Assembly (NCBI GenBank): GCA_944322855.1
Contig: CALUQG010000021.1
Span: 1 to 33,631 of the forward strand
Direction: 5' to 3'
Length of the DNA: 33,631 nucleotides
DNA from: Candidatus Gastranaerophilales bacterium
Lineage (GTDB): Bacteria > Cyanobacteriota > Vampirovibrionia > Gastranaerophilales > Gastranaerophilaceae
Part shown: piece after piece, positions 25,145-26,453 of the stretch
Position numbering within the stretch: position 1 is the stretch's first letter
Layout: each line of letters opens with the position of its first letter
Position numbers and translations under genes: made by a program
Notes under the pieces: generated by a model
Told to the model about the DNA's origin: nothing
Database searches by the model: none
What the model saw: only the letters and a program-made list of their open reading frames with translations

Positions 25145-25159
25145 ATCTGTGTTACAGAT
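25145..25159. promoter_or_regulatory. Palindrome upstream of the secreted pair
   Basis: ATCTGT-GTT-ACAGAT is a perfect 6-3-6 inverted repeat 57 bases before the Cys-rich gene. It has the form of a repressor or activator half-site pair, and nothing close to it is coding. Function inferred. Confidence 0.35.
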
Positions 25160-25215
25160 GTGTAATGCAAATTCATTTTAAAACAATACAATTATTTGTA
25201 TCGCAGGTTGTCTTT

Positions 25216-25401
25216 ATGAAAAAGATAATTGCAGTTTTAATAATAATATTGATGTCGTGTAGCGCAGGATTTGCTTTTATGAATGATATAAAAGCAAGAA
25301 GAGGATGTTGTTCACATCATGGCGGTGTGTGCGGATGTTCTAACAGTGGACGGGCTGTTTGCTGCGATGGCTCACTCAGCCCGTCATGTGGATGCAATTA
25401 A
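25216..25401 (+). CDS. Small secreted Cys-rich protein (GCCSxHGGVCGC type)
   Basis: A 61-residue precursor. Residues 1-20 are a Sec signal peptide ending S-A-G-F-A, and the mature part of about 40 residues has eight cysteines in the pattern G-C-C-S-H-H-G-G-V-C-G-C...C-C-D-G-S-L-S-P-S-C-G-C. I recall similar short exported Cys/His motifs in several bacteria but know no function; disulfides or metal binding are likely in the periplasm. I chose ATG 25216 because it gives a clean signal peptide; an in-frame ATG at 25165 adds 17 residues. Its stop overlaps the next start (TAATG), so both exported proteins are made together. Confidence 0.78.
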   Translation: MKKIIAVLIIILMSCSAGFAFMNDIKARRGCCSHHGGVCGCSNSGRAVCCDGSLSPSCGCN

Positions 25402-25808
25402 TGAAAACAATTGCTATTATAATGTGCTTGTTGTTCAGCTTATTTAATCCTGTATATGCATCGCATAAATACCTGGAAAAGGATTATCAAAAATATTGGT
25501 GCAACCAGAATAACGGAAAAACCGAAGTTAAACTTCCTGACTATACGAGAATTGACTGTCTGACAAAAAATTATGCAATCGAATTTGATTTTGCAAACAA
25601 GTGGGCTGAAGCAATAGGGCAATCACTCTATTATTCTCTTTCAACCAACAAAAAACCCGGTATAGTTTTAATACTTGAAGACAGTAACAAAGATTTAAAA
25701 TATTTAAACAGATTGATAAATGTTGCAAATAAATATTGTATACGTGTGTGGACTATTACCCCGTTAGACATTGAAAACAGTAGATTTTGTACAAATTGTT
25801 CCAATTAA
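25401..25808 (+). CDS. Secreted protein, possible PD-(D/E)xK nuclease-like fold
   Basis: A 135-residue precursor with a clear signal peptide (1-20, cleavage after N-P-V-Y-A). The mature part contains R-I-D-C-L (D52), A-I-E-F-D-F-A-N-K-W (E61, D63, K67), then Q-S-L-Y-Y (Q74, Y78) and a hydrophobic strand G-I-V-L-I-L-E. The order D, E-x-acid, QxxxY resembles PD-(D/E)xK nucleases, but the lysine of E-x-K is Asp here, so catalysis is uncertain. C34, C53, C113, C130 and C133 could form disulfides. I chose ATG 25401 for the signal peptide and the TAATG overlap with the Cys-rich gene. Fold assignment is inference. Confidence 0.75.
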   Translation: MKTIAIIMCLLFSLFNPVYASHKYLEKDYQKYWCNQNNGKTEVKLPDYTRIDCLTKNYAIEFDFANKWAEAIGQSLYYSLSTNKKPGIVLILEDSNKDLKYLNRLINVANKYCIRVWTITPLDIENSRFCTNCSN

Positions 25809-25928: not shown

Positions 25929-26453
25929 ATGGGTTACGCAATTTTCACAGCAAGAAAATTGATGTTGACAAACCGCATTAATCAAATTAACTTTAGGATG
26001 ATGCAGTTGTCACAACAACAACAGACCCTGGCAGATCAGGCCAGTCGTTGGGAACGTGCTATTGCAAATACACGGTCTCTCTTCAATAATATTGGTAATA
26101 TGTTCCAGATGGGAATTAATATGGCACTGCAAGGGCAAATGCAGCAGCTATATTCAAGCAATGTTTCAGGAGGAGGAAATTTTGATCCGTCGTCGATGAA
26201 TGCGATTGGAAGTATGCTAAACGGAGGAAACAACTTCTTTGCAACACCTCTTGGATCTTATATGATGATGATGCAGTCTTCAATAGAAATGTCAAACCAA
26301 AATCAATTAAGACAGGTAAAAGATATGGAAAACCAGATAGAACTCCAAATGAAGTCTCTGGAAACACAACTAAAAGCAGCACAGGCGGAAATGGAAAATG
26401 TCGAAAAAGCCGAAGACAACGAAATCAAGAAATCGGCACCGCAGTTCGCTTAG
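25929..26453 (+). CDS. Unknown Met/Gln-rich coiled-coil protein
   Basis: Not recognised. The 174-residue protein has no signal peptide and no true membrane helix. An N-terminal helix (about 5-55) is rich in Gln, Met, Asn and Arg, the middle (about 55-115) is rich in Met, Asn, Gly and Ser with G-G-G and M-M-M-M runs, and the C-terminus (120-165) is a Gln/Glu/Met-rich coiled coil. The layout of helix, flexible Gly/Asn centre and coiled coil suggests a self-assembling or needle/filament-like protein, but there is no homologue I can name. It has AGAGG as ribosome binding site, its own promoter and a strong terminator, as expected of an abundant single-gene product. Confidence 0.8.
   Translation: MGYAIFTARKLMLTNRINQINFRMMQLSQQQQTLADQASRWERAIANTRSLFNNIGNMFQMGINMALQGQMQQLYSSNVSGGGNFDPSSMNAIGSMLNGGNNFFATPLGSYMMMMQSSIEMSNQNQLRQVKDMENQIELQMKSLETQLKAAQAEMENVEKAEDNEIKKSAPQFA

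Follow-up and report, generated by a model that had tools for sequence, protein, structure and literature searches.

Pairing of an exported nuclease-like protein of predicted PD-(D/E)XK type with a small cysteine-rich protein resembling one lobe of Dis2 in Gastranaerophilales and in phages

Introduction

Mobile elements of Vibrio cholerae and Campylobacter jejuni encode DNases that block transformation, according to the relevant passages of PMC11472951, and the prophage dns genes of Campylobacter accompany extracellular DNase activity and non-transformability in the passages of PMC10893306 that treat these genes. The locus described here is likened to these systems by role, not by protein family. 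The Campylobacter dns products and a DNase of a V. cholerae ICE are exported or extracellular and encoded on integrated elements, and the same passages describe no small cysteine-containing partner for them (PMC10893306, PMC11472951). Both mobile-element carriage and export are seen in relatives of our nuclease-like protein, which temperate phages carry close to repressor or integrase genes and which have signal peptides; the copy analysed here is itself chromosomal.

NucS acts in DNA repair in the cytoplasm and contains an additional domain. The endonuclease domain of EndoMS/NucS (PDB 5gke, 2vld) has the PD-(D/E)XK-type fold predicted for our protein (95 residues at 2.8 Å and 89 residues at 2.1 Å), whereas our protein is a single exported domain with 10–12% identity and no lysine after the second catalytic acid. 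The small partner resembles Dis2 (Lpg0823) of the Legionella Dot/Icm outer-membrane cap, which has two similar lobes and five disulfides and is located near the outer membrane; no structural relatives of it were found and no function was inferred (PMC8486379, the paper of 7MUC/7MUD). Each lobe of Dis2 matches the cysteine motif of the partner, but Dis2 places two lobes in a secretion machine, whereas a single lobe is encoded here beside a nuclease-like gene. Another comparable arrangement involves YHYH_alt (NF033223), a small His-rich module that is likewise exported and joined to a nuclease of the same family, although its motifs differ from those of the cysteine-rich protein.

The stretch of DNA analysed here (the window; 33,631 nucleotides) is contig C21 of the 2.01-Mb genome of a Candidatus Gastranaerophilales bacterium. 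The Gastranaerophilales are non-photosynthetic and related to Cyanobacteria. A first-pass annotation of the window had proposed that two overlapping genes encode a secreted nuclease and a metal-binding or disulfide-rich partner acting as inhibitor, activator or anchor, preceded by a palindrome. Export, the PD-(D/E)XK-type fold and the conservation of the pair were upheld by our analysis; the inhibitor role and the relevance of the palindrome were not, and the partner looks disulfide-rich more than metal-binding.

Results

Organization and conservation of the gene pair

The features of the locus are listed in Table 1. The reading frames and the TAATG overlap were as first annotated: the TAA stop codon of the cysteine-rich protein gene (Cys gene) occupies positions 25399–25401 and the ATG of the nuclease gene positions 25401–25403. 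Both proteins begin with the clear signal sequences previously noted, and a crude script found export signals to be family-wide. The cysteine cluster was also found, with C31, C32, C39, C41, C49, C50, C58 and C60 lying within 30 residues and a ninth cysteine in the signal peptide. The median dN/dS values in the genus, calculated from unsaturated pairs only, are approximately 0.17 for the Cys gene, 0.13 for the nuclease gene and 0.09 for the core of the cysteine-rich protein. Therefore, both genes are real and constrained, and purifying selection acts on each of them within the genus.

Table 1. Features of the gene pair and of the regulatory elements (window positions unless a contig is given)
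Feature	Position	Strand	Observation or basis
Palindrome ATCTGTGTTACAGAT	25145–25159		Exact; only exact copy in the genome; overlaps the conserved element
Operator-like element TTACA-N4-TGTAAT	25152–25166	+	Before the Cys gene in 19 of 19 genus members inspected
Putative -10 box TACAAT	25187–25192	+	20 bp past the operator; relatives have TATAAT at the matching place
Exported (signal peptide) 61-aa protein, predicted to be disulfide-rich; single Dis2-lobe-like domain	25216–25401	+	Alignments A2/A3, PDB profile match, predicted fold, purifying selection
Exported (signal peptide) 135-aa nuclease-like protein, predicted PD-(D/E)XK type	25401–25808	+	93-sequence alignment, structure model, VIA-align
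174-aa Gln/Met-rich ORF	25929–26453	+	After the gene pair in nearly all genus genomes
Small XRE-type HTH gene (HTH_3), locus L293	G000:C4:116032–116280	-	Near groEL; operator and -10 spacing of the nuclease operon

The Cys gene is present in 18 of the 22 other genomes of the genus and directly precedes the nuclease gene in all 18. The synteny is constant, comprising a TM2-type gene upstream (where detected), the Cys gene, the nuclease gene, the 174-aa ORF and RarA; the 174-aa ORF had no Pfam match above the cut-off and only a weak GrpE-like match. Two genus genomes (G003 and G008) retain the nuclease gene and the operator and lack the Cys gene. Outside the genus, one genome (G043) has the two genes adjacent and divergent; in six others they are unlinked or one occurs without the other. 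Pairs on viral contigs or prophages are co-directional at L148, L153 and L163 and convergent at L158 and L167. The nuclease gene was found at 6 of the 44 viral Cys loci (two of the six being near-identical contigs), as compared with 199 nuclease matches among the 2.9 million viral contigs of IMG/VR. On the nuclease tree, in which many forks are unresolved, the paired state needs eight changes, at least three of which are forced by well-supported branches. Linkage of the two genes is supported: the proposed pairing is conserved in the genus (18 of 18) and appears again, with other gene orders, in prophages.

The nuclease gene is absent near many viral Cys loci, and most members of the nuclease family have no cysteine-rich partner. 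In 24 genomes from outside the order that carry the nuclease, a set without a positive control, no match to the cysteine-rich protein (E ≤ 0.01) was obtained. The lack of a partner in most family members and in these genomes indicates that the partner is not essential.

The cysteine-rich protein also accompanies other nucleases. Its gene directly follows an exported SNase gene at L160, lies approximately 1.4 kb from another SNase gene at L323 and overlaps an exported endonuclease I gene (E = 6e-27) at L332. Genes of other types were also seen beside Dis2-lobe genes. Exported rhodanese-like genes directly precede them in prophages (L141, 2609–3004; L149 and L150, 2396–2833), an apparent rhodanese-domain gene adjoins one at L104, and signal-peptidase-like genes directly precede them on two viral contigs, L331 (2003–2413; S26/S24 by Pfam) and L339 (1998–2417; similar by eye).

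Predicted fold and conserved residues of the nuclease-like protein

The structure of the nuclease-like protein was predicted with a pLDDT of 94.8 and a pTM of 0.87. Its helices (a) and strands (b) follow the order a-b-b-b-a-b-a-b-a and contain the core a-b-b-b-a-b fold of the PD-(D/E)XK phosphodiesterase superfamily. In the VIA-align comparison, EndoMS (Z = 9.5) and NucS (Z = 9.4) ranked highest, followed by AF1548 (8.5), and lower ranks included the restriction enzyme PaqCI (8.0), CdiA-CT nuclease toxins (7.4 and 6.6) and XisH. Foldseek alone retrieved nothing from the PDB below an E-value of 0.001, and neither sequence nor profile searches of that database gave a match. In the viral structure library BFVD, giant-virus and algal-virus proteins, several of which are named KilA-N, were retrieved at 19–33% identity, along with one unnamed viral protein at 36%. 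Among these giant-virus and algal-virus proteins, Q6XM53, A0A2L2DKL7 and A0A6G6ADR0 contain a domain with the nuclease fold at 25–33% identity.

Across 93 aligned sequences, E26, A59, E61, K67, W68, E70 and Q74 (precursor numbering) are invariant, and E42, D47, R50, D52, C53, D63, A69, I72, G73, L76, Y78 and L90 are nearly so. The motif D...E-x-D...QxxxY, on which the first-pass annotation had based its nuclease assignment, is present and conserved among these relatives (D52 in 91, E61 in 93, Q74 in 93 and Y78 in 92 of the 93 sequences). The canonical D...(D/E)-x-K signature is absent, because position 63, where lysine would be expected, is D in 87 sequences and E in 5. Variants without the canonical signature are known in the PD-(D/E)XK superfamily, and BamHI achieves catalysis with E-x-E. 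Since D or E replaces the canonical lysine, catalysis by this family would have to rely on E-x-D/E or on another lysine, such as the invariant K67 located six residues past E61. We therefore use the label 'PD-(D/E)XK-type fold' and do not class the protein as a proven active member. The model supports the fold that had been proposed; nuclease activity is putative. Both C34 and C53 are present in 83 of the 93 sequences, neither in 9 and only one in 1; this covariation fits a disulfide formed in an oxidising compartment, as would suit a protein that is exported.

Relationship of the cysteine-rich protein to Dis2

The core of the cysteine-rich protein is nearly fixed in our alignments as RGCCSHHGGVCGC-S-GRA-CCDG-SPSCGC. 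A profile of this core, searched against the whole PDB, matched a single molecule, 7muc chain AN and its equivalents in seven further entries (E = 1e-11). The profile matches this chain twice along its length, once in each lobe (E = 5e-9 and 1e-11). We read the chain as Dis2 because its two repeats, its ten cysteines, its modelled length of 76–78 residues and the PDB entries it comes from agree with the published description. Foldseek with the predicted structure of the cysteine-rich protein likewise ranked 7muc_AN and 7mud_AN highest (1.5 Å over 33 columns, 48% identity), but with a weak E-value of 0.5, and no Z reached 2 in VIA-align for this domain of only approximately 33 residues. Judged by sequence, the cysteine-rich protein is thus equivalent to one Dis2 lobe, and the predicted fold points more weakly in the same direction.

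C39 and C50 are absent together in L101, L105, L141, L164 and L166, and their equivalents are missing from lobe 1 of Dis2; in lobe 2, those of C41 and C60 are missing as well. L103 and L148 are the single exceptions to the co-occurrence of C41 and C60. These patterns suggest the disulfide pairs C39–C50 and C41–C60; C31/C32 are predicted to pair with C49/C58. The two matched stretches of Dis2 contain ten cysteines, the number required for its five reported disulfides. Given the likeness to Dis2 and the joint loss of C39 and C50, we favour disulfides over metal binding by the eight cysteines, the other possibility first raised for the partner.

The cysteine-rich protein also gave a weak match (E = 4e-4) to PHROG 6000, which has no assigned function. 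At L168 (2887–3060) and L169, the halves of the cysteine motif are swapped (CCDG...CTC, then GCCSRHGGVCGC). These proteins are weakly DUF3761-like (PF12587, E = 0.003, below the cut-off).

Distribution and phage context of the nuclease family

Relatives of the nuclease-like protein were found in Gastranaerophilales, Desulfobacterota, Nitrospirota, Nitrospinota, Verrucomicrobiota (Opitutales), Campylobacterota and Pseudomonadota. Eight phage records carry relatives, including those of Salicola phage SCTP-2, Rhizobium phage RR1-A, Dulem virus 31 and Nitratiruptor phages NrS-2 to NrS-5; no plasmid record had a match. No usable name for either protein was obtained from Pfam, NCBIfam, PADLOC or PHROGs. 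Tox-REase-9 matched the nuclease family weakly, and weak matches to PRK10040 and T4 Spackle were discarded because they appear to reflect common signal peptides. Export signals were detected by a crude script in nearly all members, and lipoprotein anchoring was dismissed, as a convincing lipobox was seen in single members only. Four relatives (L047, L051, L054 and L061) carry YHYH_alt fused N-terminally to the nuclease, with scores above the cut-off. A second Gastranaerophilales subfamily (L006, L007, L009, L011, L012, L014, L015, L025 and L029) has a hydrophobic C-terminal tail that could be a membrane anchor.

At viral nuclease loci, a repressor-like HTH gene was present within 1.5 kb in 27 of 80 and a tyrosine integrase gene in 11 of 80; nearly all of the HTH and integrase genes detected in the 3 kb searched lay less than 1.5 kb away. 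The nuclease gene follows CI in Dulem virus 31, abuts a LexA-like repressor gene in Nitratiruptor phage NrS-4 and abuts a recombinase gene in Rhizobium phage RR1-A. Such a position in the lysogeny region is often where genes expressed in the lysogen are located.

A shared operator for the operon and an XRE-type gene

Across the genus, the operator takes the form TTACA-N4/5-GTAAT and lies 20–21 bp before TATAAT or TACAAT, as determined by a pattern search for the operator, with the spacing measured by script in 17 genus members and the element recognised by eye in the other two. If transcription starts seven bases past the -10 box, the operator is centred at about -41. The palindrome reported in the first-pass annotation exists, but relatives do not keep it and instead retain the overlapping TTACA-N4-TGTAAT. 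It was thus rejected as the conserved signal.

The composite of operator and TATAAT occurs 30 times in 23 genus genomes, always before this operon or one XRE-type gene, whereas a reversed-pattern control occurs twice. Because the -10 box in the window is TACAAT, the operator of this genome required a separate search. The XRE-type gene is present in 22 of the 23 genus genomes. In the simplest reading, its product acts on its own gene and on the nuclease operon, and we infer both the identity of the regulator and the sign of its action; a third regulator may act on both.

Discussion

The best explanation of these findings, to which we assign a probability of about 0.5, is an envelope DNase directed against incoming DNA, with a Dis2-lobe accessory and XRE control. 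The exported PD-(D/E)XK-type enzyme would be held in the cell envelope and would cut DNA arriving from outside, whether transforming, phage or plasmid DNA. The Dis2-lobe protein would be a non-catalytic accessory that most likely stabilises the DNase or docks it close to the outer membrane. In prophages, the module lies among lysogeny genes and would there serve the resident element; in the gut genus, it occupies a fixed chromosomal locus and is probably activated by the small XRE regulator, which would also act on its own gene, from the site at about -41. Such a function fits an exported nuclease-type enzyme that has a disulfide-rich accessory, that temperate phages carry and that is fixed in a single chromosomal lineage. 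DNA is the presumed substrate, and contact between the two proteins and docking are likewise presumed; the substrate may instead be RNA or not a nucleic acid at all.

The occurrence of the accessory beside three nuclease folds makes docking or stabilisation likelier than inhibition of an active site. The inhibitor role initially suggested for the partner is unlikely, because most nuclease relatives lack the partner, which for its part also occurs with SNase and endonuclease I. The same facts bear on a toxin-immunity system in which the nuclease would be an antibacterial effector and the cysteine-rich protein its exported inhibitor. The small gene comes first and overlaps the larger one, CdiA-CT nuclease toxins are among the structural matches and Tox-REase-9 matches weakly, all of which would suit such a system. 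However, a partner does not occur wherever the putative toxin does, the Cys gene is missing from two genus genomes that have the nuclease and its operator, and pairing with two other nuclease folds is difficult to reconcile with a single active-site inhibitor. Since most family members have no partner, we regard this reading as quite improbable. A protein that retains the fold, is catalytically dead and only binds DNA or another envelope ligand would account for the missing canonical lysine, but the strict invariance of E26, E61, K67, E70 and Q74 in very divergent members resembles that of an active site, and this reading, too, seems improbable.

Other roles can be envisaged for an active enzyme. 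A nutrient DNase that obtains phosphate and nucleotides from extracellular or gut DNA, stabilised by the cysteine-rich protein, is unlikely, yet it would be in keeping with an exported enzyme that is chromosomal, vertically kept in a gut genus and governed by a single dedicated operator; host nutrition leaves the setting of many relatives in phage lysogeny regions unexplained. Processing of incoming double-stranded DNA for uptake, not for destruction, appears very improbable. Transformation normally includes an uptake nuclease, as stated in the relevant passage of PMC11472951, and a nuclease-like protein that is exported and controlled by a small XRE regulator could fill that place, but the operator precedes no uptake gene within the spacing tested and phages would gain little by carrying such an enzyme.

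Returning to the envelope DNase, the position of the cysteine-rich protein in prophages, next to several exported DNases of unrelated type, suggests that mobile-element DNases acting against incoming DNA have an accessory that has been overlooked. It is conceivable, though rather doubtful, that Dis2-lobe proteins form a general outer-membrane docking module that mobile elements join to exported DNases of unrelated structure (PD-(D/E)XK-type, SNase and endonuclease I), and that Dot/Icm recruited Dis2 from among them.

Conclusion

In this study, we describe a widespread nuclease-like family that has no Pfam, NCBIfam or PHROG name and for which a predicted fold and conserved residues are now given, together with a small partner common to three nuclease folds. 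The gene pair comes with a two-promoter regulon comprising the nuclease operon and the XRE-type gene. The partner also provides the first sequence family for Dis2, a protein of a much-studied secretion machine. Exported DNases of mobile elements shape the exchange of DNA between cells, and the pair described here may belong among them.
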